IMG/VR virus record: IMGVR_UViG_3300047368_000064
Span: 1-32,408 of that record
Reading direction: 5' to 3' (one strand)
DNA from: a virus
Length of the DNA: 32,408 bases
The notes under the pieces are model-generated. The model did not search any database and was not told the origin of the DNA. It worked only from the letters and a program-made list of their open reading frames with translations. The position numbers were made by a program, and so were the translations under genes. Below, in pieces: positions 2,595-23,862 of this stretch. Positions within the stretch are counted from its first letter, which is position 1, and each line of letters starts with the position of its first letter.

Positions 2595-2626
2595 AGTTAA
2601 AAAGCTGTTTATATAATTTTTTTTTG

Positions 2627-5490: not shown

Positions 5491-5539
5491 AGTTTTGTTA
5501 AAATAGTTAAAAAATTGTTTATAATGTTAAGTTGTTTTG

Positions 5540-5547
5540 TATATTAG
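5540..5547 (+). promoter_or_regulatory. Early promoter -7 box (TATATTAG)
   Basis: TTTTGTATATTAG with TTGTTTAT upstream (TTG at 5515-5517, 22 nt before the box) fits a Bacteroidota -33/-7 promoter. The box ends 18 nt before the ATG at 5566. Likely promoter for the small-protein block and, through overlaps, the DNA modification genes. Confidence 0.6.
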
Positions 5548-8738: not shown

Positions 8739-8765
8739 ATATTTTTTTTATTAACAAGTTATTTG

Positions 8766-8773
8766 TATATTAG
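8766..8773 (+). promoter_or_regulatory. Early promoter -7 box (TATATTAG)
   Basis: TTTGTATATTAGC is the same as at 5540. It lies in the only gap in this block (8739-8797) and ends 24 nt before the ATG at 8798. No clear -33 TTG. Probably drives 8798-11399. Confidence 0.55.
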
Positions 8774-10726: not shown

Positions 10727-10728
10727 TT

Positions 10729-10869: not shown

Positions 10870-11399
10870 TGACATTAGAACAATTAAAAGACGAGTTACA
10901 TAATTACTACCAATTTGATATAGCAACTAAAAGTAGAAAACGTGAAATAGTATATGCTAAAAAAGTATTTTGTAAGATAGGTTACGAACTAGGTTATACT
11001 TATGACAAAGTAGCAGCTGTATTAAACTCAAATCATGACTTAGCAATATATCATGCAAGTACTATAAATTCTATAGAAGATAGAGATAAAATGATATTTG
11101 ATAAAATAATAGATGACTATAGTTTATTTATTAAAAAATTCAATGCTCAAAAAAAACGTATAATAATTAAAGGCATACAAGATAACTTAGAAAAACAAAA
11201 AGCAGAAGAATACAAAGACCTTATAACAGAAATAAACAAAACAATAATAAACTGGGATAGAAATAGTATAAGAGAATTTATAGATACCAGACTAAAAGTA
11301 TACGATAAAGCTCTAACTAATAAGATTAAACAAAAAGAAATAGCTAAAGTTCCAGGCGCAAGACTAATTAGAAAAGTAAAGAACACACTGTTGAGTTAA
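10869..11399 (+). CDS. DnaA domain IV-like DNA-binding protein
   Basis: 176 aa. Residues about 20-75 (TKSRKREIVYAKKVFCKIGY, ELGYTYDKVAAVLNSNHDLA, IYHASTI) follow the DnaA C-terminal DNA-binding domain: 'SRKREIVYAR' helix, 'Y....VA..LN..H....HA' helix-turn-helix with the conserved H-x(n)-HA. The rest (80-176) is Lys-rich and helical with no AAA+ motor. It could mark an origin by binding DnaA-box-like sites, regulate transcription, or assist packaging. It lies just upstream of the terminase genes, across a late-type promoter at 11417. Confidence 0.65.
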   Translation: MTLEQLKDELHNYYQFDIATKSRKREIVYAKKVFCKIGYELGYTYDKVAAVLNSNHDLAIYHASTINSIEDRDKMIFDKIIDDYSLFIKKFNAQKKRIIIKGIQDNLEKQKAEEYKDLITEINKTIINWDRNSIREFIDTRLKVYDKALTNKIKQKEIAKVPGARLIRKVKNTLLS

Positions 11400-11416
11400 A
11401 ATTATCTACAAATGTT

Positions 11417-11424
11417 TATATATT
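11417..11424 (+). promoter_or_regulatory. Late promoter box abutting start codon (TATATATT)
   Basis: GTTTATATATTAGTATGAAC: the box TATATATT ends exactly 3 nt before the ATG at 11428. Four further late genes (12961, 20053, 21262, 23512) have the same layout and spacing. A start of transcription at or next to the A of ATG would make a leaderless mRNA. Confidence 0.5.
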
Positions 11425-11427
11425 AGT

Positions 11428-11784
11428 ATGAACAAAACTGAACAACATAAAAAAGCTATAATAGCAGCTTTAGAAAAATCATTAGGTGTAGTAACAGAAG
11501 CATGTAGAAAAGTAGGAGTAGGTAGAACAACATTCTATGGTTGGTTAAAAGATGACAAAGAATTTGCAGCACAAGTAAAAGACGTACAAGATATAGCGTT
11601 AGACTTTGTTGAATCAAAGCTATTTGAGAACATTAGAGACGGCAAGACAAGTGAGATGATATTCTACTTAAAAACAAAGGGAAAGTCACGTGGTTACATC
11701 GAGAGACAAGAAATAACAGGTGCAGACGGATTACCTAACAACTTCAAAGTAGAAATAATTGACAACACAAAAAGTACAGACTAA
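11428..11784 (+). CDS. terS: Terminase small subunit
   Basis: 118 aa DNA-recognition subunit of the packaging motor. N-terminal helix-turn-helix (about residues 8-45: HKKAIIAALEKSLGVVTEAC, RKVGVGRTTFYGWLKDDKEF), central helical oligomerisation part (ALDFVESKLFENIRDGKTSE, MIFYLKTKGKSRGY) and a flexible tail. The motif 'T..AC.K.GV.R.TFY.W...D..F' followed by 'E..L......G......FYLKTKG..RGY' is characteristic of phage small terminases. It overlaps the large subunit by 26 nt. Confidence 0.88.
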   Translation: MNKTEQHKKAIIAALEKSLGVVTEACRKVGVGRTTFYGWLKDDKEFAAQVKDVQDIALDFVESKLFENIRDGKTSEMIFYLKTKGKSRGYIERQEITGADGLPNNFKVEIIDNTKSTD

Positions 11785-12925
11785 CATTGTTTATAGGCAT
11801 TTACTTAATAGCCAAGACAAGATTGTAGTACAGCAAGGAGGTACACGTAGTGGTAAGACATACAACGTACTTTTGTTTATCATATTTGAATACTGTTTAA
11901 AATACCAAAGTAAAACTATTACTATATGTAGAAAGACATTTCCAAGTGTTAGAGCTACAGTAATGCGCGACTTTATAACTATATTAAAACAATATGGATT
12001 ATATAGAGAAGAACACCATAATAAATCTAATAGTGAATATAAGCTTAATAATAACTTAGTTGAGTTTATAAGTGTAGATCAACCACAAAAAATTAGAGGT
12101 CGTAAAAGAGATATATTGTTTATCAACGAAGCTAATGAATTAGACTTTGAAGATTGGCAGCAATTAGTATTTAGAACACAAGAAAAAATAATATTAGACT
12201 ATAACCCTTCAGATGAATACCATTGGATATACGATAAAGTATTAGTTAGAGATGATGTAGAGTTTTATAAGACTACTTATTTAGATAATCCTTTTTTAGA
12301 TAAGTCTATTGTAAAAGAAATAGAATTACTTAGAGAAACAGATGAGCAATATTGGCAGATATATGGATTGGGTGAAAAAGGTATTAGTAAAGCAACTATA
12401 TTTAATTATGTTGAGGTACCACATGTACCACACGATGCTGAGTTAGTTAGTTATGGAGCAGATGCAGGATATACAAATGATCCTAGTACATTAGTTAGTG
12501 TTTATAAGAAAGATCATAACTTATACATAGAAGAACACTTATACCGTACTATGATGACAACTACAGATTTAAGTAACCACTTCAAAGAAGTAATAGAAAA
12601 CAAAAGAAGTCCTATATACTTTGATGCTGCAGAACCTAGATTAATTGATGAGCTACGAAGAATGGGACATAACATACAACCAAGCTTAAAAGGTAGAGAT
12701 AGTATAAATGCAGGTATTGACTTATTAAAAAGATATAAGATACATATAACAAGCAATAGTGATAATGCTATTAGAGAGTTTAGAAACTATAAATGGTTAG
12801 AAGACAAGACAGGTAAATTAACTAATAAGCCAGTAGATAAAAACAATCATATAATAGATGCAGTTCGTTACGCTACATATTCTATAATGAGTAGACCAAA
12901 CTTTGGTAGATATGCAGTACATTAA
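11759..12925 (+). CDS. terL: Terminase large subunit
   Basis: 388 aa packaging ATPase/nuclease. Walker A is QGGTRSGKT (26-34), Walker B plus catalytic Glu is ILFINEA (119-125), and the coupling region follows (DYNPS, about 147-151). The RNase H-like nuclease part has GADAGYTND (Asp235), YFDAAEP (Asp289, Glu292) and NNHIIDAVRYA (His364, Asp367). These are all the acidic positions expected of a Terminase_3/6-type protein, and the length is near the family norm. The start appears to be TTG at 11759; there is no ATG or GTG in frame before the conserved QGGTRSGKT, and the coding region overlaps terS by 26 nt. The type of DNA end (headful or cos) cannot be read from this alone. Confidence 0.93.
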   Translation: MTTQKVQTNIVYRHLLNSQDKIVVQQGGTRSGKTYNVLLFIIFEYCLKYQSKTITICRKTFPSVRATVMRDFITILKQYGLYREEHHNKSNSEYKLNNNLVEFISVDQPQKIRGRKRDILFINEANELDFEDWQQLVFRTQEKIILDYNPSDEYHWIYDKVLVRDDVEFYKTTYLDNPFLDKSIVKEIELLRETDEQYWQIYGLGEKGISKATIFNYVEVPHVPHDAELVSYGADAGYTNDPSTLVSVYKKDHNLYIEEHLYRTMMTTTDLSNHFKEVIENKRSPIYFDAAEPRLIDELRRMGHNIQPSLKGRDSINAGIDLLKRYKIHITSNSDNAIREFRNYKWLEDKTGKLTNKPVDKNNHIIDAVRYATYSIMSRPNFGRYAVH

Positions 12926-12949
12926 TCTCAAAAATAATTTAAAAAAGTT

Positions 12950-12957
12950 TATATATA
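12950..12957 (+). promoter_or_regulatory. Late promoter box abutting start codon (TATATATA)
   Basis: GTTTATATATAAGTATGAAA: box ends 3 nt before the ATG at 12961. Same layout as the other late boxes, with TATATATA in place of TATATATT; an A/T block AATTTAAAAAA lies just upstream. Confidence 0.45.
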
Positions 12958-12960
12958 AGT

Positions 12961-13617
12961 ATGAAAGTTAATTTAAGAATACCAACTACTTTAAATGACG
13001 TTACGCTAAAGCAGTATCAAGAGTTCTCAAAACTTGAAAGCAAGTTAGATGAAACTAACGACGCTACAATACAGTTAAAGATAGTAGAGATATTTTGTAA
13101 CGTACCAGAAATAGTAGTTAGAAATATGAAAGCTACAGATATAGCAGAAGTTTGTGAAATCATAAATGGTATGTTTGATGTACAGCATCAGTTAATAAAT
13201 AGGTTTACACTTAATGGTGTAGAGTATGGTTTTATACCTGAGTTAGATGATATGTCATTTGGAGAATATATGGACTTAGATACTTTTATAGGAGATAACG
13301 ATAATTTACACAGAGCATTAAATGTATTGTTTAGACCAATAGAACATAAAAGAGGTAATAGATATAAGATAAAAGAATATAACCCAGATACAAGTGAAGA
13401 AGCAAAAGAGTTTCCATTAGACGTAGTATTAGGTGCAATTATTTTTTTTTACAATTTAGGCAAGGACTTATCGATGGTTATGCTGAACTCTTTGGGCAAG
13501 AAGAACGAGAAGGCTTTAGCTCAACATCTGCTTTCACAGCCAAATGGGGATGGTTTAACGCACTCTATGGAATCTCTAACGGAGATATTACAAAATTTGA
13601 AAATATCACTAAACTAA
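12961..13617 (+). CDS. Tail assembly chaperone, zero-frame product (gpG-like)
   Basis: 218 aa. Position between terminase and tail genes, a helical composition and an overlapping -1 frame extension give the layout of a lambda gpG/gpGT-type tail assembly chaperone. Conserved-looking parts are VTLKQYQEF (about residues 14-22), a helical middle, and LDVVLGAIIFFYNLGKDL (about 153-170), after which the -1 frame also codes. The zero-frame tail after the slip site (about 55 residues) has less AT-rich third positions than the rest of the genome, consistent with dual coding. It would coat the tape measure before tail tube polymerisation. I infer the function mainly from the frameshift and neighbours. 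Confidence 0.7.
   Translation: MKVNLRIPTTLNDVTLKQYQEFSKLESKLDETNDATIQLKIVEIFCNVPEIVVRNMKATDIAEVCEIINGMFDVQHQLINRFTLNGVEYGFIPELDDMSFGEYMDLDTFIGDNDNLHRALNVLFRPIEHKRGNRYKIKEYNPDTSEEAKEFPLDVVLGAIIFFYNLGKDLSMVMLNSLGKKNEKALAQHLLSQPNGDGLTHSMESLTEILQNLKISLN
13443..13449 (+). promoter_or_regulatory. -1 ribosomal frameshift slippery site (T TTT TTT)
   Basis: Bases 13442-13450 are nine T residues. In the zero frame they read ATT TTT TTT TAC, giving the heptamer T TTT TTT of the X XXY YYZ type, where both tRNAs can re-pair in -1. The -1 frame is open from 13398 to 13703. Confidence 0.65.
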
Positions 13618-13703
13618 ACGTACATCAATGTTTAACGTATTTAGAATATACAAAAGAGAAAAACGATATAGAAGCAGCAAAAATTAAAAACAAATTTAAA
13701 TGA
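13443..13703 (+). CDS. -1 frame extension of tail chaperone (gpGT-like T domain)
   Basis: The -1 frame downstream of the slip site encodes about 86 residues: LQFRQGLIDGYAELFGQEER, then STSAFTAKWGWFNALYGISN, then TKLNVHQCLTYLEYTKEKND, ending KIKNKFK. It has no ATG, GTG or TTG between its upstream stop (13395-13397) and the conserved FTAKWGW part, so it cannot easily be a separate gene. The pattern F-x-KWGW-Y-x-x-GD, 'F..ITKL.V..CL.YL...KEK' is familiar from Bacteroidota phage tail genes. Third positions are AT-rich as in real genes here. Its TGA overlaps the next ATG (ATGA). The fused product would be made in a minority of translations; a homopolymer sequencing error merging two halves is the alternative. 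Confidence 0.7.
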   Translation, partial: FFLQFRQGLIDGYAELFGQEEREGFSSTSAFTAKWGWFNALYGISNGDITKFENITKLNVHQCLTYLEYTKEKNDIEAAKIKNKFK

Positions 13704-14170
13704 GCCAAACAGGGATAAGAGGATTTTATCAATTAACAGAAACTATAAAAACACAACTCTTAAGTGATGTTAACGTAAACACAGTAACAACAGGAGATAT
13801 ATTTGACATAGACTTATCTAAGCAAAGTATATTTCCTTTATGCCATATTATCATAAACAACGTTATTACACAAGAACAAGTATTGTTATTTAATATAACT
13901 GTTATGGCTATGGATATAGTAGACGAAAGTAAAAGTGAAACAACAGACATATTTGTAGGTAACAACAACGAGCAAGATGTACTTAATACACAATTAGCTG
14001 TATTGAATAAATTAGTAATGGTATTACGTAGAGGTACATTATATAGTGATAAGTTCCAATTAGAAGGAGATGCAACATTAGAACCTTTTTATGAAAGGTT
14101 TGATAATAGACTTGCTGGCTTTGCCGCTACTATGGATATTGTAATACATAACGATATTGATATATGTTAG
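13700..14170 (+). CDS. Putative tail terminator / tail completion protein
   Basis: 156 aa. GFYQLTETIKTQLLSDVNVN, TVTTGDIFDIDLSKQSIFPL, CHIIINN, then VLLFNITVMAMDIVDESK and a C-terminal EPFYERFDNRLAGFAATMDI ending NDIDIC. The layout (short helix, beta sheet with 'FP.CHI.I..', final 'RF.NRL.G' and 'N...IC') fits tail-terminator or tail completion proteins in Bacteroidota phages. It lies between the tail chaperone and a gp10-like gene, overlapping by 4 and 7 nt. Assigned from pattern and position only. Confidence 0.6.
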   Translation: MSQTGIRGFYQLTETIKTQLLSDVNVNTVTTGDIFDIDLSKQSIFPLCHIIINNVITQEQVLLFNITVMAMDIVDESKSETTDIFVGNNNEQDVLNTQLAVLNKLVMVLRRGTLYSDKFQLEGDATLEPFYERFDNRLAGFAATMDIVIHNDIDIC

Positions 14171-14670
14171 CTGACCAGTATTTAAGAGACGAATTAAATA
14201 AGTTTGCTAAGTATGTTATACAACAATCACGTAGCAATCTATCTAAGGGTAAAAAGAATGTTTCTAAGGAACTTTATAATTCTTTAGGATATGAAATAAG
14301 TCAAAGTGGCTCAACAATATCCTTGGGCTTTGATATGGTCGATTACGGTAAGTTTCAAGATAGAGGTGTTAGTGGTACAGAAAAGAAATATAACACACCA
14401 TATAAATACACAAACAAAATGCCACCAGCTAAGGCATTTGACAAGTGGGCTGTTAGAAAGGGAATAGCACCACGAGGTAAAGGTGGTAAGTTTGAAAAAA
14501 GAAAAGGATTGAATTTTGCAATAGCTAAATCAATATATAAGAAAGGAATAAGACCAAGTATGTTTTTTACAAAGCCTTTTGCTGCTGCATTTAAGAGATT
14601 GCCAGATGAATTAGTAGAAGCATACTCAATAGGAATAGAGAAACAAATACAAGTAAACATAAGCAAATGA
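14164..14670 (+). CDS. HK97 gp10-like neck/tail protein
   Basis: 168 aa, basic. Helical start (LRDELNKFAKYVIQQSRSNL), then strands around ISLGFDMVDYGKFQDRGVSG, where 'Y..F...G..G' is the gp10-like signature for head-tail joining or tail completion proteins. A loop PYKYTNKMPPAKAFDKWAVR and a C-terminal region PSMFFTKPFAAAFKRLPDEL follow. It overlaps the previous gene by 7 nt and the next by 4 nt. Probably bridges the head-tail connector and tail terminator. Confidence 0.65.
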   Translation: MLADQYLRDELNKFAKYVIQQSRSNLSKGKKNVSKELYNSLGYEISQSGSTISLGFDMVDYGKFQDRGVSGTEKKYNTPYKYTNKMPPAKAFDKWAVRKGIAPRGKGGKFEKRKGLNFAIAKSIYKKGIRPSMFFTKPFAAAFKRLPDELVEAYSIGIEKQIQVNISK

Positions 14671-15782
14671 GCAAAATAAACGTAAGAAGTCCATATTACA
14701 TATATGATACAGTTGCTAATTTAACAAGCGATAAAATAGATATATACATATATACTGGAACACAAGGTAGTAGACCGTCTACACCTACATATCAATTAAC
14801 TAGTAATGCAATTGATGACAAGGTTACTTTTGAAATAAGTGAATTAATAAAAGATTATTTTACAAATAATTTTGATGGAGATTACGTTAGTGATTTCTTT
14901 TGGGTAGATTATGAAATATATAGAAGCGTTAGTGGAGGTGCTTATGTTAGTCAAGGAATGGTATTAAACAAAGGTTTTTATGGATATGGATTTTTTGAAG
15001 ACGGTGCAAACCCACAGAACTCACAAGGTCTGTTACAATCTAATACTACAATAGTAAAGTTAGATGATGCACCAGCTACAATAGCAGTAGACACTTCAAC
15101 AACAACTCAAGTAACATACGAGCTAAACGGACAACAAGTATATACTAAAGCTATAAGTTCAAGCACAAATAGTAATGCACAAATAGAATACGTTACAAGT
15201 GGTATAAATGGCTCTGATGAGTTTGAGGATAGAGTAATACAAGATGGTGGTATATTTGAAGGTAGTGATTGTTTAAGTAAGTTTTCTAAAGAATATACAT
15301 TGTTTGACTTTGATACGATATATGTAGATACTACAAGTGGTGTTACTAAGCTAACAGTTAAAAGCGAAAGCGAATGTAAGTTTACACCATACAAAGTAAC
15401 ATTCATAAACAAGTTTGGTGCATTACAAGATATATGGTTTTTTAAACGTACTAATGAAACACTAACTACAAAGCAAGAAAAATACAAACGGAATACAGTT
15501 GTTAACGGTTCTTATGATATTAGCAAACATCAAAACAAAACACTTACAAAGAATGGTAAAGAGAAACTAACTTTAAATACAGGATATTATCCAGAATCTT
15601 ACAATGACGTTTTCAAAGAAATGCAATTAAGTGAAGATTGTTGGATAGAGATAAACTCAAAAACATTACCAATACAAGTAACAAGTAGCTCTTTAGCATA
15701 TAAGACACAATTAAACGACAAGATAATAAATTACACAATAGAAGTTGAATTTGCTTTTGACACTATAAACAACATACGTTAA
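14667..15782 (+). CDS. Tail structural protein (371 aa), unassigned
   Basis: Begins MSKINVRSPYYIYDTVANLT, followed by alternating strands (DKIDIYIYTGTQGSRPSTPT), an acidic middle and a C-terminal beta-rich part ending YTIEVEFAFDTINNIR. The 'INVRSPYYI' start is shared, as I recall, with tail-tip or baseplate-like proteins in Bacteroidota phages. A short Cys pair lies at DCLSKFSKEY and ESECKFTPYK. It overlaps both neighbours by 1-4 nt and lies upstream of a large tail-tip protein, so a distal tail or baseplate role is likely. No enzyme motif. Confidence 0.6.
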   Translation: MSKINVRSPYYIYDTVANLTSDKIDIYIYTGTQGSRPSTPTYQLTSNAIDDKVTFEISELIKDYFTNNFDGDYVSDFFWVDYEIYRSVSGGAYVSQGMVLNKGFYGYGFFEDGANPQNSQGLLQSNTTIVKLDDAPATIAVDTSTTTQVTYELNGQQVYTKAISSSTNSNAQIEYVTSGINGSDEFEDRVIQDGGIFEGSDCLSKFSKEYTLFDFDTIYVDTTSGVTKLTVKSESECKFTPYKVTFINKFGALQDIWFFKRTNETLTTKQEKYKRNTVVNGSYDISKHQNKTLTKNGKEKLTLNTGYYPESYNDVFKEMQLSEDCWIEINSKTLPIQVTSSSLAYKTQLNDKIINYTIEVEFAFDTINNIR

Positions 15783-18106
15783 TGCAGATAATAGAACTAT
15801 ACATATTAGATACTAGGGTAGATTTATTTGAAGATGAAAGTATTTCTATAACTGATACTATACAAAATGTAAAAGATATAAGTAAAATATTTACACCTTT
15901 CTCACAACAGTTTAATTTACCAGCTTCTAAAACTAATAATAAGTTATTTAAGCATTATTATAATTTTGAGATAGACGGATCATTTGATGCTAGATATAAA
16001 GCTAATGCAGAAATAAAACTTAATGGTGTTACTTATAAAGTAGGTAAGATAAGATTAAATAGTGTAAGTTTAAAGAATAATGCACCTAACTCTTATAAAG
16101 TAGTTTTTTTTAGTGACACTATAGAACTAAAAGAAGTACTAGCAGAGGATCTATTAAGTGATCTAACTTATGACGATGCAATGAGCTTTACTTATGATAA
16201 TGATAATATATATTCAAGATTTACTACTCTAAATGGTGATGTAGTTGTTCCTTTAATTACACATAGTGCTAGATTTCAAATGCACAGTAATGGTAAATAC
16301 GAAGATTTAAATAATAATAAATTAACTTATTTAGATTTAAAACCAGCAGTAAAAGTTAAAAAGGTTATAGAGGCAATAGAGACTTCTTATCCAGAGATAG
16401 AATTTAGTAGTAACTTTTTTAATAGTAATGATTTTAATAATATCTATTTATGGTTACACAGAAATAAAGGATATATCTCTAATGCAACAGAAGGAGGAAG
16501 TATATTTACAATTACTAATAGATTACATTTAACAACTACGCCATCACCTACTTGGAGTTTGTCAACTGGTACAGAGCAAAGACCATTAATAGGTGGTAAT
16601 AATATTGGAGGAGGTACAAGTACTGCTGTAGAGCAAAGATATTTATTTAGCTATACTTTAACTACATCAAGCACTGATCCTTACACTGTAATAATAGGAG
16701 ATGCTGGTCAATATATAAATGAAACTTTAGAAAACGGAGGTAACTTTTCTGGAACATTTAATATTAGTGTAGGTAATATTTTTGGATTTACACCAAATCC
16801 TCTAAACATACCATTTACTGTTTCAAGTACTAATACATTTACTATGGTACAAGGTTTAACAGTATCACTTCAACAGAGAGATGGTTTCTGGGCTGGAACA
16901 CCTTGGACAACTGTGTCTACTGGTGTTTATACAGCGAATACTAATGCTATCACAAATACATTTAGAGTTGGCGATAATATGCCTAAAATGAAAGTGTTTG
17001 ACTTTTTAATAAACTTGTTTAAGATGTTTAACTTAACAGTATATAAAGATAATGGAGTTTTACAAGTAGAAACACTAAATGATTTTTATAATGCTGGTAA
17101 AAGATACGACATTACTAAATATGTTGATATGTCTAAAAGTGATGTAGGTAAATTACTTCAATATAAAAACATGTCTTTTAATTTTAAAAGCAAAGAAACA
17201 CAATTAATACAATTTTCAGAAGAATTACAAGGTTATCCATTTTCAGAAGAAAGTTATGGTAATGATCAATATGACGGTGGTGATTATAAAGTAGAAGTTG
17301 ATTTTGAGAAAATGATGTATGAAAGGTTATATTTAAATCCACCAAACGGAACAACTTTAACTAATGTTTGTCAAGGATCAATGCTTGATAAAGACAATAA
17401 TCCAACAATAGGCAAACCTTTATTATTATATATTAAAAATACTAATGATCCAGATGGTAGAATTGTTTGGCACGAATTACCTGGTGGAGGTAATACACCT
17501 TTGACTAATTATAAAAGACCATCACAAATATTTGACAACACTTCTGGAGATACATCTTTAAACTTCGGGGAAGAAAGAGATGAATTTTTTCATGAAATAG
17601 TAGGACAAAATTTATTTAGTAAATATTATTTAGATTACATACAAAGCATTTTTGATGTTAAAGGAAGAAAATTAAAAGTAAGTGCTTATTTACCTTTACA
17701 TATATTACTAAAGTATAAGTTAAACGATAGGTTTATAATATCTGGCAAAAGTTATAGAATCAATAGTATAAAAACAAACCTATTAACTAACAAAAGTGAT
17801 TTAGAACTAATTAATGATTTATTTAGTGTAAGTCAATTAGAGAGTGGTACAAATCCTAATGCGCCAAGATTAGCAGCACCAACAGTAGATGTTGTAAGCA
17901 CTACATTTATAACATTAAGTTGGACTGCAATAAGTGGAGTTGTAGGATATAAAATTTACATTGATGATGTTTATATTACAACAATAACAGGCACTACTCA
18001 TAAGTTTACACCATTATTAAGTGGTATAACTTACAAGCTAGGTGTTCAAGCATCTTATACTAATTTTGATGCAGAAATAACTAATACATTTGAAACAACA
18101 TTATGA
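15782..18106 (+). CDS. Large tail-tip / baseplate protein with C-terminal FN3-like domain
   Basis: 774 aa. The N-terminal part (to about residue 130: IELYILDTRVDLFEDESISI, TDTIQNVKDISKIFTPFSQQ, FNLPASKTNNKLFKHYYNFE) is typical of Bacteroidota phage tail proteins in which 'F..FSQ.F.LP.S..N...F.HYYN' recurs. The middle is beta-rich. Residues about 695-774 form a fibronectin-III-like domain (APTVDVVSTTFITLSWTAIS, GVVGYKIYIDDVYITTITGT, ITYKLGVQASYTNF). FN3 domains in tail tips commonly give weak binding to cell-surface sugar. Encoded directly before the tape measure, which is a usual place for tip proteins in this lineage though opposite to lambda order. Confidence 0.7.
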   Translation: MQIIELYILDTRVDLFEDESISITDTIQNVKDISKIFTPFSQQFNLPASKTNNKLFKHYYNFEIDGSFDARYKANAEIKLNGVTYKVGKIRLNSVSLKNNAPNSYKVVFFSDTIELKEVLAEDLLSDLTYDDAMSFTYDNDNIYSRFTTLNGDVVVPLITHSARFQMHSNGKYEDLNNNKLTYLDLKPAVKVKKVIEAIETSYPEIEFSSNFFNSNDFNNIYLWLHRNKGYISNATEGGSIFTITNRLHLTTTPSPTWSLSTGTEQRPLIGGNNIGGGTSTAVEQRYLFSYTLTTSSTDPYTVIIGDAGQYINETLENGGNFSGTFNISVGNIFGFTPNPLNIPFTVSSTNTFTMVQGLTVSLQQRDGFWAGTPWTTVSTGVYTANTNAITNTFRVGDNMPKMKVFDFLINLFKMFNLTVYKDNGVLQVETLNDFYNAGKRYDITKYVDMSKSDVGKLLQYKNMSFNFKSKETQLIQFSEELQGYPFSEESYGNDQYDGGDYKVEVDFEKMMYERLYLNPPNGTTLTNVCQGSMLDKDNNPTIGKPLLLYIKNTNDPDGRIVWHELPGGGNTPLTNYKRPSQIFDNTSGDTSLNFGEERDEFFHEIVGQNLFSKYYLDYIQSIFDVKGRKLKVSAYLPLHILLKYKLNDRFIISGKSYRINSIKTNLLTNKSDLELINDLFSVSQLESGTNPNAPRLAAPTVDVVSTTFITLSWTAISGVVGYKIYIDDVYITTITGTTHKFTPLLSGITYKLGVQASYTNFDAEITNTFETTL

Positions 18107-18243
18107 TAAAGAATATATTAGAACTTTTAAAATACGCAAACGGAGAAACAGAAAACATCCGTATAGCACAAGGTAAATATAAACTACCATTAACTATAAA
18201 AGAGGGATATAAAGCACTTAAACAAGAAATACAATGGCGATAG
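18103..18243 (+). CDS. Small hypothetical protein (46 aa)
   Basis: Squeezed between the tail-tip and tape measure genes with a 4-nt (ATGA) and a 10-nt overlap. MIKNILELLKYANGETENIR, IAQGKYKLPLTIKEGYKALK and a short tail. Family not recognised; the overlaps favour a real, coupled gene. Confidence 0.55.
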   Translation: MIKNILELLKYANGETENIRIAQGKYKLPLTIKEGYKALKQEIQWR

Positions 18244-20018
18244 AAAAAACAATAGAAATTAAAACTAACACTAAAGGTGCAGAACAAGGCTTTGATAAAC
18301 TTGCTGATGCTATTAAAGAGTTAAATGAAAGCTTTAATAAGTTTAGTAAAACAACAGAAGAAGGCTTAGAAGATATTAGCAAAACTTCTAAAAACACAGA
18401 AAGTGGTGTAGGAAGAATTTCTAAAGGTTTTAGAGGCTTAGGGATAGCTATAAAAGCAACTGGTATTGGTTTATTTGTTGCAGCAGCCAGAAAACTTGGA
18501 GAAGTTTTTATGCAAAACCAAACAGTTTTAGATAGTTTTAATACAGTATTTGAAGCTATAAGTATTGCATTTAATGATTTTGTTACTTTTGTAGTAGACA
18601 ATGCTGGTCAAGTTGTAGATTTTTTCAAAGCTATATTTGAAAACCCTGTTGAAAGTATAAAAAGTTTTGGTAAAGCTATTAAGGCTAATATTATTGAAAG
18701 ATTAAAAAGTGCTTTAGATGTTTTAGGGTTTTTATCAAGTGCAGTTAAAAAAGTATTTAGTGGAGATTTTAAAGGTGCATTAGAAGATGTTAAAGCTGCT
18801 GGTAAAGAAAGTATCGACGTTATTACTGGTGTTAATGACACTTTTGATAAGGGTGTTGAGTTTGTAAACAAAAATAAAGATGCAATAAAAGGTTACATAA
18901 AAGAAACAATTAAATCAGCTAAAGAAAATGTAAACCTTGCAAATGCAGCTAAGTTAGCAGCAGCAGAACAATCACTACTTGTAGAAAAATATGATATACA
19001 AGCAGAGCAACTAAGACAAATAAGAGATGAGGAACGTAATAGTATAGAAGAACGTAGAAAAGCTAATGACCAATTATTAGAAGTATTAGAACAACAAGAA
19101 CAAGCTATGTTAGCTCAAGCTAATATGCAAATAAAGTCTGCTCAAGCAGAATTAGCTAAAAACAAATCTATAGAAAATCAAGTAGCTCTTACAGAAGCTT
19201 TAGCAAATAAACAAGGTGTTTTAGCACAAATAGAAGGTTTTAGGTCAGAACAAAAAGCAAATGATTTAGCTTTAGATAAAGAAGAAGTAGAATTAATTAA
19301 TAGTAAGTTAGAAAGTGAAAGCCAACTTGCAATAGAAAGAGAAAGGTTTAATGCAGAAGAAATCACTAATGAATTAGCAAGGTTAGAAAAGTTAAAAGAA
19401 ATAAATGATTTAGAACAACAGCAAGAACAAGCAAGATTACAAGCTATTGTAGATAATGCTAATGCTGGAACACAAGCTAAGATAGATGCACAAATAGCTC
19501 TTGACCAGTTTATGGAACAATCAAGACAAACAGATGCTCAATTAGATAGACAAGTAAAAGATGCTAAAATAAAAAATGCAGAGCAAGTAAGTGGTGCTAT
19601 TGGTCAGTTAGCTTCTGTAGCTGGAGAAGGTACTGCTGCTGGTAAAGCTTTGGGTGTTGCTTCTGCTACAATAGATACTTATGTAGGTGCAAATAAAGCA
19701 TTGGCTCAAGGTGGATTTGCTGGTATTGCTCAAGCTATAGCTATTATTGCAACAGGTTTAGTTAACGTTAAAACTATATTAAGTACAAAAGTACCAAAGC
19801 CTTCTGTTGGTGGTGTTACAAGTAGTGGTGGAGAATCCACTCCTGCATTACCTGCTCCTCCATCATTTAATATTGTAGGTGCTACTGAAACAAGTCAATT
19901 AGCAGATGCTATAGGTGGTCAAACACAACAGCCAGTACAAGCTTATGTAGTTGCTAATGATATAACAACAGCGCAAAGCTTAGAAAACAACATTGTAGAA
20001 GGTGCTACATTAGGATAA
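18234..20018 (+). CDS. Tail tape measure protein
   Basis: 594 aa, almost wholly helical. Residues 1-60 form an amphipathic coiled coil (IKTNTKGAEQGFDKLADAIK, ELNESFNKFSKTTEE). A hydrophobic patch follows at about 70-90 (LGIAIKATGIGLFVAAARKL), then long Gln/Glu/Ala-rich coiled coil (about 225-450, RQIRDEERNSIEERRKANDQ, EQQEQAMLAQANMQIKSAQA), then a second hydrophobic segment (about 460-520) and a Pro/Ser/Gly-rich end. This is the standard layout of a tape measure that sets siphovirus tail length and helps DNA entry. At about 1.5 angstrom per residue it predicts a tail near 90 nm. Last gene before the late box at 20042. Confidence 0.85.
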   Translation: MAIEKTIEIKTNTKGAEQGFDKLADAIKELNESFNKFSKTTEEGLEDISKTSKNTESGVGRISKGFRGLGIAIKATGIGLFVAAARKLGEVFMQNQTVLDSFNTVFEAISIAFNDFVTFVVDNAGQVVDFFKAIFENPVESIKSFGKAIKANIIERLKSALDVLGFLSSAVKKVFSGDFKGALEDVKAAGKESIDVITGVNDTFDKGVEFVNKNKDAIKGYIKETIKSAKENVNLANAAKLAAAEQSLLVEKYDIQAEQLRQIRDEERNSIEERRKANDQLLEVLEQQEQAMLAQANMQIKSAQAELAKNKSIENQVALTEALANKQGVLAQIEGFRSEQKANDLALDKEEVELINSKLESESQLAIERERFNAEEITNELARLEKLKEINDLEQQQEQARLQAIVDNANAGTQAKIDAQIALDQFMEQSRQTDAQLDRQVKDAKIKNAEQVSGAIGQLASVAGEGTAAGKALGVASATIDTYVGANKALAQGGFAGIAQAIAIIATGLVNVKTILSTKVPKPSVGGVTSSGGESTPALPAPPSFNIVGATETSQLADAIGGQTQQPVQAYVVANDITTAQSLENNIVEGATLG

Positions 20019-20041
20019 AAACAAAAAAAATTAAAAACTAT

Positions 20042-20049
20042 TATATATT
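20042..20049 (+). promoter_or_regulatory. Late promoter box abutting start codon (TATATATT)
   Basis: CTATTATATATTATTATGAG: box ends 3 nt before the ATG at 20053, after an A-rich block (AAAAAAAATTAAAAA). It precedes the protease gene and starts the head gene unit. Confidence 0.45.
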
Positions 20050-20052
20050 ATT

Positions 20053-21078
20053 ATGAGAATAGTAGAACTTATTTTAGACGAAGAACAAGAGATAGGGATA
20101 GAAGCTATATCAGTAGTAGAAAACCCAGCAATAGAAGAAGATTTTATTGCACTTAAATCACAAGAATTTAAACTTGCTGAGGTAGATAAAGAGAAACGTA
20201 TATTAATGGGTGCTTTATTAATACCAAATAAGCCTATATATAGACGAAACGGAGAAGATGAGTATTATATATATTTTTCTAAAGATACTGTCTTAAAAGC
20301 ATCTCAAATGTATTTAATGCAAGGTAAACAAAACAATTCAACATTAGAACATCAATATCAAATAAACGGGTTAAGCCTGGTTGAATCTTGGATTGTAGAA
20401 GATAAAGTACATGATAAATCAGTTAAATATGGCATGGATCTTCCCTTAGGAACTTGGGTAGGTGCTGTAAAAGTTAACAACGATAAAATTTGGGATGAGT
20501 TTGTTAAAACAGGTAAAGTTAAAGGTTTTTCTATTGAAGGATATTTTGCAGATAAAATGGATCGTCCTAAAGAAGCAATAAAAGATTTTAGTAGTGATAA
20601 AGTACTACAGGATATCGAACAAGGTGAAGCTGAATATTTATTAAACGAAGTAAAAGCTATTTTAAAAGACGAGCAAATAGATTTAGAATCGTATTCTGAT
20701 TATCCTGCTGCTGTAAAAAATAATGCTAAACGTGGATTAGAACTTAATAAAAAAGTTAATAATAAATGCGCTACACAAGTAGGAAAAGTAAGAGCACAAC
20801 AATTAGCACAAGGTAAAGCTATAACAGAAAAAACTATTATGCGTATGTACTCGTATTTGTCTAGAGCAGAAGCTTATTATGACGAAGGAGACAGTAAAGC
20901 TTGTGGTACTATATCTTTTTTATTATGGGGTGGTAAAGCTGGAAAACGTTGGGCTGAAAGTAAATTAAAAGAATTAGACTTAATAGATTTAAAAGCTCCA
21001 TGTCATGACGGTTACGAACAATATGGAATGAAAATGAAAAATGGAAGATTAGTACCTAATTGTATACCAATAAAATGA
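20053..21078 (+). CDS. Prohead protease, XkdF-like, with extra C-terminal domain
   Basis: 341 aa. The N-terminal part (RIVELILDEEQEIGIEAISV, VENPAIEEDFIAL) and MGALLIPNKPIYRR, then LEHQYQINGLSLVESWIVED with a candidate catalytic His100, then GTWVGAVKVNNDKIWDEFVK and VKGFSIEGYF with candidate Ser160, match the XkdF-type serine prohead protease. Residues about 205-310 form a separate domain (VKNNAKRGLELNKKVNNKCA, QLAQGKAITEKTIMRMYSYL, GTISFLLWGGKAGKRWAE), which in other Bacteroidota phages is attached to portal or protease proteins. It would cleave scaffold and capsid during head maturation; scaffold and capsid genes follow directly. Confidence 0.8.
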   Translation: MRIVELILDEEQEIGIEAISVVENPAIEEDFIALKSQEFKLAEVDKEKRILMGALLIPNKPIYRRNGEDEYYIYFSKDTVLKASQMYLMQGKQNNSTLEHQYQINGLSLVESWIVEDKVHDKSVKYGMDLPLGTWVGAVKVNNDKIWDEFVKTGKVKGFSIEGYFADKMDRPKEAIKDFSSDKVLQDIEQGEAEYLLNEVKAILKDEQIDLESYSDYPAAVKNNAKRGLELNKKVNNKCATQVGKVRAQQLAQGKAITEKTIMRMYSYLSRAEAYYDEGDSKACGTISFLLWGGKAGKRWAESKLKELDLIDLKAPCHDGYEQYGMKMKNGRLVPNCIPIK

Positions 21079-21221
21079 GAAAGCTAATTAAGAAATTTAT
21101 AACACCAAGTAAAACAAGTCCTAAAGGTGGGAGAAGAGGTTGTTTATGTAGAGACAAAGATACATACTCAATTAAGTGTTGTGATGGTAGTATACAAGCA
21201 CAAGGAATAGGAAAAGTATAA
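21075..21221 (+). CDS. Small Cys-rich protein (48 aa)
   Basis: ATGA overlap with the protease gene. MRKLIKKFITPSKTSPKGGR is followed by RGCLCRDKDTYSIKCCDGSI and QAQGIGKV. The CLC...YS-KCCDG...QGIG motif is one I recognise as recurring in tiny ORFs near capsid genes of Bacteroidota phages; role unknown. The four Cys residues could bind metal or form a compact disulfide-stabilised structural peptide. Confidence 0.7.
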   Translation: MRKLIKKFITPSKTSPKGGRRGCLCRDKDTYSIKCCDGSIQAQGIGKV

Positions 21222-21250
21222 ATGAAAATACAAAATTAATTTTTAACCCT

Positions 21251-21258
21251 TATATATT
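21251..21258 (+). promoter_or_regulatory. Late promoter box abutting start codon (TATATATT)
   Basis: CTTATATATTAATATGAACA: box ends 3 nt before the ATG at 21262, preceded by AATTTTTAA. Gives the scaffold and capsid genes their own start of transcription. Confidence 0.5.
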
Positions 21259-21261
21259 AAT

Positions 21262-21873
21262 ATGAACACAAATGATATGATTAGTAAAATCAAAGATGTT
21301 CTAAACTTATCCGAAGAAGTTAAGTTAGAACAAATGAAACTTGAAAATGGTGCTGTTTTAGAAGCAGAATCATTTGAGTCTGGTAAAGAAATCTTTATCG
21401 TTACAGAAGATGAGAAAGTAGCTGTACCAGTAGGAGAATACGAAATGGAAGATGGTCGTATTCTAACCGTAGCAGAAGAAGGTCTTATTGCTGAAATTAA
21501 AGAAGCTGGAGAAAAACCAGAAGAAGAAGTAGAAGCAAAAGAAGAAGAAGAAAAAGAAGAAATGGGATATGCTACTAAAGAGGAACTAGCAGAAGTAAAA
21601 GAAATGATTGAAGAAATCAAAGCTATGTTAGAGCCAAAAGAAGAAATGAGTGCTGATGAATTAGGTAACTTAATGACAGAAGAACTTGCTAAACACGAAA
21701 AAACAGAATTAAGCGAAGTGCCTGAGGAAGTTGAAGTAGAATTAAGTGAGCCAGCTGCTGAACCAATTAAACCTAACCCAGAAGCTAAAAATGTAAAACA
21801 CAATTTCAAGTTTGCTACAAAAAGAAAATTAAGTACACTTGATAAAGTAATAAATAAAATAATTAACAACTAA
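21262..21873 (+). CDS. Capsid scaffold-like protein
   Basis: 203 aa, strongly acidic. N-terminal domain (LSEEVKLEQMKLENGAVLEA, ESFESGKEIFIVTEDEKVAV, PVGEYEMEDGRILTVAEEGL), then a Glu/Lys-rich disordered and coiled-coil middle (about 90-135), and a basic C-terminus (FATKRKLSTLDKVINKIINN) able to touch the capsid protein. Acidic helical protein plus a basic C-terminal clamp directly before the capsid gene is the classic scaffold arrangement. The protease at 20053 would degrade it. The reverse strand is also open here, a shadow of Glu/Lys codons. Confidence 0.8.
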   Translation: MNTNDMISKIKDVLNLSEEVKLEQMKLENGAVLEAESFESGKEIFIVTEDEKVAVPVGEYEMEDGRILTVAEEGLIAEIKEAGEKPEEEVEAKEEEEKEEMGYATKEELAEVKEMIEEIKAMLEPKEEMSADELGNLMTEELAKHEKTELSEVPEEVEVELSEPAAEPIKPNPEAKNVKHNFKFATKRKLSTLDKVINKIINN

Positions 21874-21885
21874 AAATTAAATAAA

Positions 21886-22806
21886 ATGCCAAATCCAACA
21901 ATTACTGGTTCTTCATATGCTGGAGAATTTGCTGGGAAGTACTTAGGTGCTGCCCTATTATCTGCTTCAACATTAGATGCTGGGGCTGTAACAATTTTGC
22001 CTAACATTAAGTATAAAGCTGCTATGAAAGTAGGTGCTTTTTCTAACTTGGTTCGTTCTGCTGATTGTGATTTTGATTCAACTACTTCTGGTCTTACATT
22101 GACTGAGAAAGTATTAACTCCAACTGAGTTACAAGTAAACTTACAAATCTGTAAAAAAGAATTACATTCTGATTGGGAAGCTGCTCAAATGGGATTCTCT
22201 GCTTTCGATAGCCTACCTCCACTATTCTCTGATTACGTTATTTCAAGAGTAGCTGCTGAAGTAGCTAACGCTACAGAAACTTCTATTTGGCAAGGTGCTG
22301 CTGGAGAAGGAAACTTTGACGGCTTTGACGCTTTATTAACTGCTGATGGTGGTGCTGATGTAGCTTCTACAACTGTTGATAGCTCAAACGTAATTGCTCA
22401 ATTAGGTGCTATTGTAGATGCTGCTAATGCTGCTATATTAGGAAAAGAAGATTTAACTCTTTATATCTCTACAAATATGGCAAGAGCATACATTCGTGCT
22501 TTAGGTGGTTTTGCTTCTAACGTAGGTGCTAATGGTGTTGACAACAAAGGTACTACTTGGTATAACGGAGGTGCTTTATCTTTTGAAGGTATCAACGTAT
22601 TTGTAGCACAAGGTTTAGCTAACAACACAGCTGTATTAGCTCAGAAGTCTAACTTATTCTTCGGAACTGGTTTATTAAACGACAGAAACGAAGTTAAAGT
22701 TATTGATATGGCTGACATAGACGGATCTCAAAACGTAAGAGTAGTAATGAGATATACTGCTGGTGTACAATACGGAGTTAGAGGAGATATTGTCCTTTAT
22801 TCATAA
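21886..22806 (+). CDS. Major capsid protein
   Basis: 306 aa, expected HK97-like fold. Contains GEFAGKYLGAALLSASTLDA, an N-arm/E-loop-like part (NLVRSADCDFDSTTSGLTLT, EKVLTPTELQVNLQICKKEL), the spine-helix region (YVISRVAAEVANATETSIWQ, GAAGEGNFDGFDALL) and a late beta part (LTLYISTNMARAYIRALGGF, FFGTGLLNDRNEVKVIDMAD) ending in RYTAGVQYGVRGDIVLYS. Codon use is noticeably richer in GCT, TCT and AAC than neighbouring genes, as expected of the most strongly expressed gene. A terminator follows at 22830. Confidence 0.88.
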   Translation: MPNPTITGSSYAGEFAGKYLGAALLSASTLDAGAVTILPNIKYKAAMKVGAFSNLVRSADCDFDSTTSGLTLTEKVLTPTELQVNLQICKKELHSDWEAAQMGFSAFDSLPPLFSDYVISRVAAEVANATETSIWQGAAGEGNFDGFDALLTADGGADVASTTVDSSNVIAQLGAIVDAANAAILGKEDLTLYISTNMARAYIRALGGFASNVGANGVDNKGTTWYNGGALSFEGINVFVAQGLANNTAVLAQKSNLFFGTGLLNDRNEVKVIDMADIDGSQNVRVVMRYTAGVQYGVRGDIVLYS

Positions 22807-22829
22807 TAATCAAATTAACTAACATAAAG

Positions 22830-22859
22830 AGGGTGGGCAAAAACTGCCTACCCTTTTTT
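22830..22859 (+). terminator. Strong rho-independent terminator after capsid gene
   Basis: AGGGTGGGCA (22830-22839) pairs with TGCCTACCCT (22845-22854), a 10-bp stem with one G-T pair and an AAAAC loop, followed by five T residues. It would stop or attenuate transcription between the capsid and tail tube genes. Confidence 0.9.
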
Positions 22860-22876
22860 ATTAAAACAAATTAAAT

Positions 22877-23416
22877 ATGTCATGTGCAATAACAAAAGGT
22901 AGAGGAGTTGGATGTAAGACTGCCTTTGCTGGAATTAAAAATATTTACATCTTAGATTATAGTGCTGCTATTGCTGCTTTAAGTGATTCAAGTGGAACTA
23001 TAACCTTACCAACTGATGCTTCTGCTGAGTTCTTTAAGTTCGAAGTAAAAGGAGGTCAGTCATCTCTTGAAACTACTGTTACAAGTTCTAGAGAAAATGG
23101 AACTACATTTTACGAAAGTACATTAAACGTTACTTTTCAAATATTAGACGTAGCAACACAAGAAGAGATTAAACTTCTTAATAGAGGTAGAGCGCATTAC
23201 GTTGTGGAATTATATCCTAACGGTGCTGGAGTTACTAAGTACTTATTAGTAGGTAAAGACAATGGTGCTGAAATTACTGGAGGTACAATTGTAAGTGGAG
23301 CTGCTCCTGGAGATTTACAAGGATTTACATTAACTGCTGTTGCAACTGAGGTATTTCCTCCGTTCTTCTGTACTGTACCAGATGTAAGTGCTACTACTTC
23401 AATAGACCCAGCTTAG
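22877..23416 (+). CDS. Major tail tube protein (putative)
   Basis: 179 aa, beta-rich. MSCAITKGRGVGCKTAFAGI, KNIYILDYSAAIAALSD, FFKFEVKGGQSSLETTVTSS, RENGTTFYESTLNVTFQILD, ATQEEIKLLNRGRAHYVVEL, and a C-terminal beta part (TAVATEVFPPFFC). The order of a Cys-containing N-terminal arm, long beta hairpins and 'F......R..G...Y...L...F' is characteristic of tail tube proteins. It is isolated between two terminators, which suggests that its high output is set separately. Spacing to the capsid gene is 70 nt. Confidence 0.7.
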   Translation: MSCAITKGRGVGCKTAFAGIKNIYILDYSAAIAALSDSSGTITLPTDASAEFFKFEVKGGQSSLETTVTSSRENGTTFYESTLNVTFQILDVATQEEIKLLNRGRAHYVVELYPNGAGVTKYLLVGKDNGAEITGGTIVSGAAPGDLQGFTLTAVATEVFPPFFCTVPDVSATTSIDPA

Positions 23417-23438
23417 TAGTTTATTTATATTTAAAATT

Positions 23439-23467
23439 AGCCTTTCTTTTTAGAGAGGCTTTTTTTA
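23439..23467 (+). terminator. Rho-independent terminator after tail tube gene
   Basis: AGCCTTTCT (23439-23447) pairs with AGAGAGGCT (23452-23460), 9 bp with one T-G pair and loop TTTT, followed by a T-tract (23461-23466). Ends the tail tube transcript. Confidence 0.9.
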
Positions 23468-23500
23468 TTTGTAAACTATACAAAATATTTAATTTTTGTT

Positions 23501-23508
23501 TATATATT
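23501..23508 (+). promoter_or_regulatory. Late promoter box abutting start codon (TATATATT)
   Basis: GTTTATATATTATTATGAAG: box ends 3 nt before the ATG at 23512, after AATTTTTG. It restarts transcription after the terminator at 23439 and leads into the portal gene, which supports a promoter role for this motif. Confidence 0.55.
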
Positions 23509-23511
23509 ATT

Positions 23512-23862
23512 ATGAAGTTAATAGGTACAAACGGAAATAAAACTTTTAAAGTTATACCTCGTCAATTTATTGATGGTACAATTACTGTAAATCTTACAAG
23601 CGAAAGTACAGGAACAAATGTAAACTTAACACCTACTGCATCAACTGATCGTAATTATATGACATTTGTAGCAGCTTTTGGTACATTAACTGAAGGTGAT
23701 TTTTATATGCTTGAAATAAAAAATGGTAATACGGTTATATATAAAGACAAAGTGTTTTGTACAAATCAAACTGTAAACCAAACAAACAATGATTACTATT
23801 CTGTAAATAGTGGAGAATACACTACAGAGAATAGCTTTGATAACGATTACATTATATTATGA
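23512..23862 (+). CDS. Hypothetical structural protein (116 aa)
   Basis: Beta-rich, Ig-like pattern: KTFKVIPRQFIDGTITVNLT, YMTFVAAFGTLTEGDFYMLE, IYKDKVFCTNQTVNQ, ending YYSVNSGEYTTENSFDND. This short 'IYKDK.FCTNQ' domain is found beside capsid or portal genes in Bacteroidota phages as I recall; it may decorate the head. Overlaps the portal gene by ATGA. Confidence 0.65.
   Translation: MKLIGTNGNKTFKVIPRQFIDGTITVNLTSESTGTNVNLTPTASTDRNYMTFVAAFGTLTEGDFYMLEIKNGNTVIYKDKVFCTNQTVNQTNNDYYSVNSGEYTTENSFDNDYIIL

Follow-up and report, generated by a model that had tools for sequence, protein, structure and literature searches.

The late promoters of phage T4 consist of an AT-rich −10-like element, TATAAATA, that is read by the sigma-family protein gp55; they lack a −35-type element, and T4 late mRNAs have leaders. 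TATAAAT is quoted in the literature as the T4 late consensus, and the phiKZ-type late promoter (TATG) is read by the non-virion RNA polymerase. Later gene classes of the Thermus phages phiYS40 and P23-45 reportedly use leaderless mRNA. For leaderless genes of Deinococcus-Thermus, PMC12340547 describes a −10 motif located a few bp before the ATG that acts as a promoter, with spacing requirements, and that is strengthened by an added −35 element. In phiEco32 and phage 7-11, phage sigma factors (gp36 and gp47, respectively) steer the host RNA polymerase to a few late promoters. Those of 7-11 have two parts (GTAAtg-16-aCTA), and relatives whose sigma factors have diverged differ in consensus while their promoter positions remain similar (PMC8948821). 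The word "leaderless" occurs 0 times in that text.

Shine-Dalgarno sites are absent in flavobacteria, which prefer A at position −3; their sigmaA promoters carry a −7 element, TAHHTTTG, together with AT-rich motifs near −18 and −28, and in F. johnsoniae 87% of the transcripts with a probable promoter have a leader longer than 10 nt (PMC6847099). In F. psychrophilum, leaderless messages make up 5.5% of the mRNAs of 890 CDSs. For phages of flavobacteria, a search of open-licence literature yielded no paper that deals with leaderless late promoters or with sigma factors and their late promoters.

The window analysed here is a stretch of 32,408 nt with 30% G+C (IMG/VR virus record IMGVR_UViG_3300047368_000064, positions 1–32,408), which appears to derive from a member of an uncultured virus family infecting marine flavobacteria, with many relatives in IMG/VR (596 by terminase). 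An earlier note on this DNA described five boxes, each ending 3 nt before the ATG of a late gene, and all five are present where it placed them (Table 1). The pattern TATATATWNNNATG occurs five times in the window, always on the + strand, against a mean of 0.32 and a maximum of 2 in 100 dinucleotide shuffles, so that the observation is confirmed and lies far from chance. TATATATW alone is only mildly enriched (42 copies against 21.4 expected, with 1 of the 100 shuffles equally high), and the signal is therefore the spacing to the ATG. Each of the five genes does follow a gap, of 28, 35, 34, 183 and 95 nt, respectively, and where a terminator was said to precede one box there is a terminator-like hairpin with a T run; the number of terminators in the scan (3) is not above that in shuffles (mean 3.5). 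A scan of the window with the sigma-70 consensus was uninformative, giving 65 promoter-like sites against 66.4 in shuffles. The five boxes are probably the −10 halves of leaderless late promoters that start at the A of the ATG and are read by an ECF-type sigma factor of the phage, a reading built on sequence comparison.

Table 1. Candidate promoters and associated features of the window.
Feature	Position	Strand	Details
Early box TTTGTATATTTG	2623..2634	+	25 nt before ATG 2660
Early host-like box TTTGTATATTAA	3763..3774	+	22 nt before ATG 3797; heads AAA-ATPase/sigma operon
ECF-type sigma factor, 163 aa, proposed reader of late promoters	4665..5156	+	Early region; TIGR02937, phrog_1740, predicted fold
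Early box TTTGTATATTAG	5536..5547	+	18 nt before ATG 5566
Early box TTTGTATATTAG	8762..8773	+	24 nt before ATG 8798
Candidate late promoter 1	11397..11427	+	AAAA 11398-11401; TATATATT 11417-11424; predicted +1 = A of ATG 11428; terminase small subunit operon
Candidate late promoter 2	12930..12960	+	AAAA 12931-12934; TATATATA 12950-12957; ATG 12961; g218 (phrog_32199 protein), head of tail operon
Candidate late promoter 3	20022..20052	+	AAAA 20023-20026; TATATATT 20042-20049; ATG 20053; XkdF-like protease (PF14550)
Candidate late promoter 4	21231..21261	+	AAAA 21232-21235; TATATATT 21251-21258; ATG 21262; scaffold-like protein, then capsid-like protein
Terminator-like hairpin with T run	23439..23460	+	40 nt upstream of fifth late box (23501)
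Candidate late promoter 5	23481..23511	+	AAAA 23482-23485; TATATATT 23501-23508; ATG 23512; g116 (116-aa protein), then portal

The A/T block that had been noted upstream of the boxes is present, but its most regular feature had been overlooked: an AAAA fixed at −30 to −27 in all five window boxes. This AAAA is as conserved as the box itself and is its partner half. The full element, which shortens to the two-part form CWAAAA-N14-TTATATAT, reads (C/T)(A/T)AAAA at about −32 to −27, N14 and TTATATAT at −12 to −5, followed by T(−1) and A(+1). The search pattern demanded neither the AAA at −30 to −28, found in 62 of 67 distinct boxes, nor the T at −1, which 64 of the 67 have. These promoters would resemble those of T4 in their AT-rich, −10-like late element and in its recognition by a sigma-family phage protein, here a proposed one; unlike the single TATAAATA of the gp55 type without an upstream element, TTATATAT is here accompanied by the AAA. 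As is typical of leaderless genes, the window late boxes are −10-like and keep a fixed, short spacing to the ATG. In Deinococcus-Thermus, however, this arrangement is genome-wide and belongs to the host sigma factor RpoD (TANNNT), whereas here it marks a late class of a phage, with an element fixed at −30 and a candidate phage sigma factor. P23-45 also differs, in that it uses the host sigma factor with the phage inhibitor gp39 and not a phage ECF sigma factor. As in phiEco32 and 7-11, a shared element lies upstream of late operons and a phage-encoded sigma factor is proposed to read it; transcription of those phages starts 6–9 nt from the element, and the hosts and phages are different.

The element recurs in relatives. 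In the best 80 of the 596 terminase relatives (840,998 bases, the window itself not included), the distance from box to ATG peaks at 3 nt with 86 cases, against 1–10 cases at each other distance from 0 to 14 nt and 2 cases at 3 nt on the reverse strand; a second peak of 26 cases is found at 15 nt. The element precedes the tail-operon, protease, scaffold and pre-portal genes at 123 of 126 homologous junctions: g218, 74/75; protease, 21/21, all leaderless; scaffold, 16/18; and g116, 12/12, one with a 2-nt leader. The terminase small subunit gene has the box at 9 of 54 junctions. At ten other late genes it was found at none of the 320 starts with a readable ATG (47 further cases, with no ATG near the aligned start, were left out of this count), and the element thus sits at operon heads only. 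A pattern-first blind scan of IMG/VR yielded at least 162 matches in at least 118 loci; among the 162 matches listed, 160 open an ORF of at least 60 codons or run off the contig and 144 adjoin homologues of five window genes. When the ATG was shifted by 1 nt, 48 matches were obtained, of which 11 open such an ORF, and 2 of 48 loci are related. That the boxes are chance products or coding coincidences of an AT-rich genome in which TATATATW alone is common is thus extremely improbable and is rejected: the shuffles, the distance peak, the fixed AAA, the junction counts, the IMG/VR scans and the concerted variants described below are all contrary to it.

Because flavobacteria prefer A at −3, and A occupies this position in 93% of 69 boxes, the element might instead be a Kozak-like or AT-rich ribosome site. 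This is very unlikely, since the element remains intact with its AAAA partner 12–41 nt upstream of the ATG, since every readable start of the ten further late genes lacks it although these too have to be translated, and since translation explains neither the AAAA-N14 spacing nor the link to the sigma factor; the leadered variants and the operon-internal genes without the element lead us to reject it. At g218, the complete two-part element is displaced upstream by 12 nt at 19 of 75 junctions, so that about a quarter of them have a 12-nt leader and leaderlessness is not essential there. In all 29 distinct leadered boxes (ATG 2–41 nt further down, at +2 to +41), which are related sequences, +1 is A, and the fact that it stays A argues for a promoter over a ribosome site. 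This set omits two T-rich boxes with the ATG at +28, which have C at +1 and a base other than T at −1; five with the ATG at +31, which are codons of the protease gene and have C or T at +1; two more, at +43 and +50, both with A at +1; and eight that lack an ORF, in which +1 is T four times, G twice, and A and C once each. A at +1 is also common from base composition alone.

According to the earlier note, late transcription begins at the A of the ATG or close to it. This is supported by the fixed two-part spacing, the independence of the element from the ATG, T(−1)A(+1), the location at operon heads and the co-variation with the sigma factor, and the A of the ATG is most likely +1. Bacterial start sites may scatter by a few nt, and a promoter whose start is variable or lies a few nt off (e.g., −1 to −6, with a very short leader) would accommodate this, as it would the 6–9 nt reported for phiEco32 and 7-11, which allow +1 to about +4 here. 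Such an offset is quite unlikely: T(−1)A(+1) is kept where the ATG lies elsewhere, and a start inside the ATG would leave an mRNA without its start codon. All five window late genes lack an in-frame ATG in the next four codons, so that an mRNA begun beyond +1 would be left without a start codon.

The proposed reader of the late promoters is encoded in the early region. It matches TIGR02937 (sigma70-ECF) over 14–163 with an E value of 2.2e-8 and 33.9 bits, below the NCBI curated cut-off of 42.9, and Pfam Sigma70_r2 with an E value of 0.026; 18 of 18 members of the set of homologues match TIGR02937. The predicted structure has a mean pLDDT of 82.7 and a pTM of 0.51, which leaves the domain arrangement uncertain, and its best PDB matches are ECF sigma factors (6dv9, E 3.9e-4). 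It aligns with sigmaE (1or7) with Z 10.3 and an rmsd of 13.6 over 147 residues, the domains being placed differently, and with sigmaE region 4 (2h27) with Z 9.8 and an rmsd of 2.3 over 65 residues. By profile and model, the protein is predicted to belong to the sigma-70/ECF family, with sigma2 and sigma4. A search against the phages collection gave no match, and the single match of its profile to PDB sequences (a proteasome subunit, E 0.082) was taken as chance. The gene was found in 20 of 20 relatives' records and is the only one of 17 early-region genes tested (2660–11399) with a homologue in 10/10 long relatives' records. The protein encoded at 10869–11399 was set aside as a late factor because it has a homologue in just 2 of these 10 records.

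Alternatively, leaderless late promoters could be recognised by a sigma factor of the host, whether primary or ECF, acting by itself or together with a further activator from the phage. The AT-rich motifs near −18 and −28 of host promoters (PMC6847099) would fit this and may mean that sigma region 4 is not what reads the AAAA; the phage sigma factor is tied to the box by sequence co-variation. This alternative is nevertheless unlikely. None of the five late boxes matches TAHHTTTG (the TTTG is missing, and a host-type identity is rejected), while the phage early boxes (TTTGTATATTWR), which lie 18–25 nt from their starts as had been claimed, resemble that element. The late promoters share with flavobacterial sigmaA promoters upstream motifs that are AT-rich and spaced by roughly one turn of the helix, and differ from them in that host mRNAs are mostly leadered. 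Also against a host factor are the presence of the sigma gene, alone among the early-region genes tested, in every long relative's record and the fact that box type tracks the phage sigma factor.

The −10 boxes differ among four clades, and variants are concerted, the same one recurring at several junctions of a record: (A/G)CGTTATA in G012, and ACTATATA in G013, G016 and G017. The main-clade matrix gave no match in G011, G012 or G019; a looser pattern found clade variants at 1, 9 and 1 places, respectively, one of the nine in G012 being without the CGTTATA box. For the 29 records with both a sigma gene and a readable g218 box (L082, whose 58-aa sigma frame is broken by TAA, was omitted, and L033 and L085 gave no g218 start), 3 changes on the sigma tree, the fewest possible, account for box type, and the TerL tree requires 5. 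Partial Mantel correlations of box with sigma, given each of seven other genes, were 0.56–0.85 (permutation p 0.001; shared ancestry is not removed), and those of box with the seven genes, given sigma, were never significant. By these sequence comparisons, box type follows the sigma gene and not the seven other genes. The four natural sigma/box pairs form a ready set for working out DNA choice by ECF region 2 and region 4.

In the scheme favoured here, the host-like early promoters would first yield the ECF-type sigma factor, which may then bring the host RNA polymerase to the late promoters. Region 2 of this factor would read the −10 box that differs between clades, and region 4 the AAAA element that stays constant. 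Transcription would start at the A of the ATG, so that the late mRNAs (packaging, tail, protease, scaffold/capsid and portal operons) would be leaderless and presumably translated from the 5'-terminal AUG. With a little more confidence than doubt, we see here an exchangeable module of ~34 bp in which start codon and start site are fused with the promoter and the phage ECF sigma factor initiates on the A of the ATG; the virion programme would be leaderless in a mostly leadered phylum, and the modules at all operon heads would change in concert with the exchange of sigma genes between phages. This would provide a clean transcription programme for an uncultured phage family, predicts the exact 5' ends of virion mRNAs, names a candidate promoter reader, and raises the question of how the ribosomes of a phylum without Shine-Dalgarno sites cope with abundant leaderless mRNA. 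The median gap before these late genes is 35.5 nt (70 measured of 75 cases), about the length of one promoter, and leaderlessness may thus simply save space.

Five copies of TATATATWNNNATG, which the earlier note had placed 3 nt before the ATGs of late genes, were confirmed at these positions, all on the plus strand; shuffles gave 0.32. The shuffle comparison in the window locates the rarity in the fixed 3-nt spacing to the ATG, the box alone being common. The motif search in related phage genomes that the note had called for showed that this spacing recurs: in the best 80 of at least 596 IMG/VR terminase relatives (72-95% identical), the box-to-ATG distance has a sharp maximum at 3 nt (86 cases) and a second at 15 nt (26 cases), and the reverse strand of the same 80 has neither peak (2 at 3 nt, 6 at 15 nt). 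The box near the ATG stands, but the element extends further than described, with AAA also fixed at -30 to -28. Among 67 distinct boxes from the window and relatives, collected through TATATATWNNNATG alone, 62 carry this AAA and 64 have T at -1; three of the five boxes lacking AAA end in TTTTG and resemble coding sequence. A per-position profile comes from 69 distinct, longer sequences in which T at -1 was required. The consensus reads (C/T)(A/T)AAAATAATTTAAAAAnGTTTATATATTAnT directly followed by ATG; its upstream part occupies about -32 to -27, and 14 nt separate it from a -10-like part at -12 to -5. A matrix built from the 62 AAA-bearing boxes found 70 forward sites and 1 reverse site in 21 records, and 1 in 63 simulated sequences; it was trained on the same family, and its counts are therefore descriptive and give no independent test. 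Exactly five sites each were found in the window and in the relatives' records G002, G003, G005, G006, G007, G009 and G010 (27-33 kb). A looser pattern not requiring TATATAT gave 75 forward and 2 reverse matches in the same 21 records, with 3.15 expected.

Features of the window discussed in the text
Feature	Position	Strand	Basis
ATG after late box, TerS (terminase small subunit) operon	11428	+	TATATATWNNNATG
ATG after late box, g218 (phrog_32199, head of tail operon)	12961	+	TATATATWNNNATG
ATG after late box, XkdF-like protease	20053	+	TATATATWNNNATG
ATG after late box, scaffold	21262	+	TATATATWNNNATG
ATG after late box, 116-aa gene	23512	+	TATATATWNNNATG
ECF-type sigma factor	4665-5156	+	TIGR02937, phrog_1740, predicted structure
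Large right-end gene	26283-27518
Large right-end gene	27520-30297
Large right-end gene	30299-32272

The element marks operon heads. In a junction survey of 81 records it precedes g218 in 74/75 cases (a 12-nt leader in 19, none in 55), the protease in 21/21, the scaffold in 16/18 (of the others, one had no ATG found and one is a miss), the 116-aa gene in 12/12 (one with a 2-nt leader) and TerS in 9/54. Ten other late genes with a readable ATG have it in 0/320 cases in these records; 47 further cases without an ATG near the aligned start lie outside the 320. Where TerS lacks the element, several whole contigs have a box before another gene there, e.g., one of 188-196 aa. Box-holding gaps have a median of 35.5 nt, about the element's own length (70 of 75 cases measured). 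An independent test is provided by a pattern-first scan of IMG/VR with AAA-N15-TTATATATTANTATG, chosen without reference to these phages. Among the matches listed, 162 lie in 118 new loci, and 160 of them start an ORF that either reaches 60 codons or runs off the contig; 144 directly precede homologues of the five genes listed above (116-aa gene 51, scaffold 39, g218 34, protease 19, TerS 1), 18 precede other genes, and at 13 of the 118 loci none of 16 window proteins had a homologue. In a control with the ATG shifted by 1 nt there were 48 matches in total, of which 11 started an ORF of this kind, and 2/48 control loci had any homologue of the 16 proteins. In loci L138, L147, L210, L216 and L238, whose contigs have no homologues of the 16 proteins, the exact pattern precedes a conserved ~420-aa protein (severed by the contig end in L138); perhaps a late promoter resembling this one is used by a further group of phages.

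The data mark the element as a promoter; the ribosome-site reading is rejected because the whole element persists upstream when the ATG lies further down. In leadered homologues the two-part element is intact and the ATG is set further downstream by 12, 14 or as much as 41 nt. Among the 29 distinct leadered boxes with the ATG at +2 to +41, +1 is A in all and -1 is T in 28; outside this set are two at +28 (T-rich, -1 not T, +1 C), five at +31 (protease codons, +1 C/T), one at +43 and one at +50 (+1 A), and eight without an ORF (+1: T 4, G 2, A 1, C 1). T(-1)A(+1) is a frequent initiator pair in bacterial promoters, and because it is kept in leadered boxes it is part of the element and not of the codon. 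In leaderless copies the +1 A coincides with the A of the ATG, where transcription would start; a start further downstream would cut the start codon off the mRNA, and all five proteins lack another in-frame ATG in the four codons that follow. At the g218 and TerS-region junctions of relatives, leaders come in discrete lengths, mostly 12 or 14 nt (12 distinct boxes for each), with one box at 2 nt, one at 10 nt and three at 40-41 nt.

The gene at 4665-5156 encodes an ECF-type sigma factor; it comes after an AAA-ATPase gene, downstream of the host-like early box at 3763. TIGR02937 matches 18/18 homologues (window protein E 2.2e-8, under the curated cut-off) and phrog_1740 17/18, and the top structural matches of the model (mean pLDDT 82.7, pTM 0.51) are ECF sigmas. 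A homologue is present in 20/20 relatives' records, and among 17 early-region genes tested (2660-11399) only the sigma gene has one in 10/10 long relatives' records. Box type and sigma vary in concert. The -10 box has four types (TTATATAT, CTATATAC, TGATATA and CGTTATA), and in the records where several boxes are seen (G012, G013, G016, G017) most boxes of a record share one type. On the sigma tree 3 changes, the fewest possible, account for the four types, against 5 on the terminase tree; the sigma minimum is not to be over-read, because the TGATATA and CTATATAC groups sit on long sigma branches and there is little support (41/0) for the 'main' group. Loci L040 and L048 (96/98), and L054 and L057/L073 (97/96), are close on the terminase tree, yet their sigmas and boxes differ. 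When each of seven other genes was controlled for, box and sigma had partial Mantel correlations of 0.56-0.85 (permutation p 0.001 each); with sigma controlled for, box and each of the seven gave -0.45 to 0.23, none significant. Shared ancestry weakens all the permutation tests. With borders set by eye, sigma region 4.2 is 67-81% identical between box types, AAAA being common to all, and region 2.3/2.4 is 27-52% identical, the -10 box varying. Such a pattern is compatible with region 4 as the reader of AAAA and region 2 as that of the -10 box. The phage sigma would be the factor recognising the late boxes, and the early versus late timing of expression is presumed. Record G012 (L102-L104, 47.7 kb) has two sigma genes, and its CGTTATA-type late boxes also come in two sets; it is either a tandem of two related phages or the result of a join in the assembly.

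Phages phiEco32 and 7-11 are described as using their own sigma factors at few late promoters, whose consensus varies with the sigma (PMC8948821), and in Deinococcus-Thermus bacteria -10 boxes adjoining ORFs are reported to serve leaderless genes (PMC12340547). Leaderless mRNA is put at 5.5% in F. psychrophilum (PMC9723704), and leaders >10 nt at 87% of transcripts with a probable promoter in F. johnsoniae (PMC6847099); on these accounts leaderless mRNA is the exception in Flavobacterium, whereas the phage late class is predicted to be leaderless. The AR9 paper describes leaderless transcripts as frequent in phages (PMC5312081). Because of the phiEco32/7-11, Deinococcus-Thermus and AR9 cases every part has a precedent, and what appears new is the combination: the open-licence literature searched held no phage ECF-type sigma with a fixed leaderless late regulon and concerted exchange.

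The window (32,408 bases, 29.8% G+C) is an IMG/VR virus record, and its terminase, XkdF-like protease and portal-like genes lie on the plus strand throughout. The nearest terminases in the phages collection, from Flavobacterium phages, are only 38% identical. Three MAG contigs match among GTDB genomes, labelled Winogradskyella (84%), Flavobacteriaceae (71%) and Epsilonproteobacteria (61%); phage contigs in MAGs can bear wrong taxon labels. These labels and the host-like early boxes point to marine Flavobacteriaceae as the probable host. Contigs G002, G005 and G009 are likely complete because direct repeats of 99-127 nt terminate them.

The ORFs called with TTG starts at 2624 and 3764 begin within early promoter boxes, and the true starts are likely ATG 2660 and ATG 3797, which leaves 2624-2659 and 3764-3796 ahead of them. 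A dense AT array with repeated TATATATA (2020-2080) lies directly 5' of the NinG-like gene at 2082, and is absent from the late boxes found by the matrix scan of 21 records. The protein at 10869-11399, upstream of TerS, presumably resembles DnaA domain IV; a Pfam search of it gave no match. The first ORF (1-553) enters from the left edge and its end resembles the large right-end genes, with which it probably forms an array of related tail/adhesin genes severed by the record's ends.
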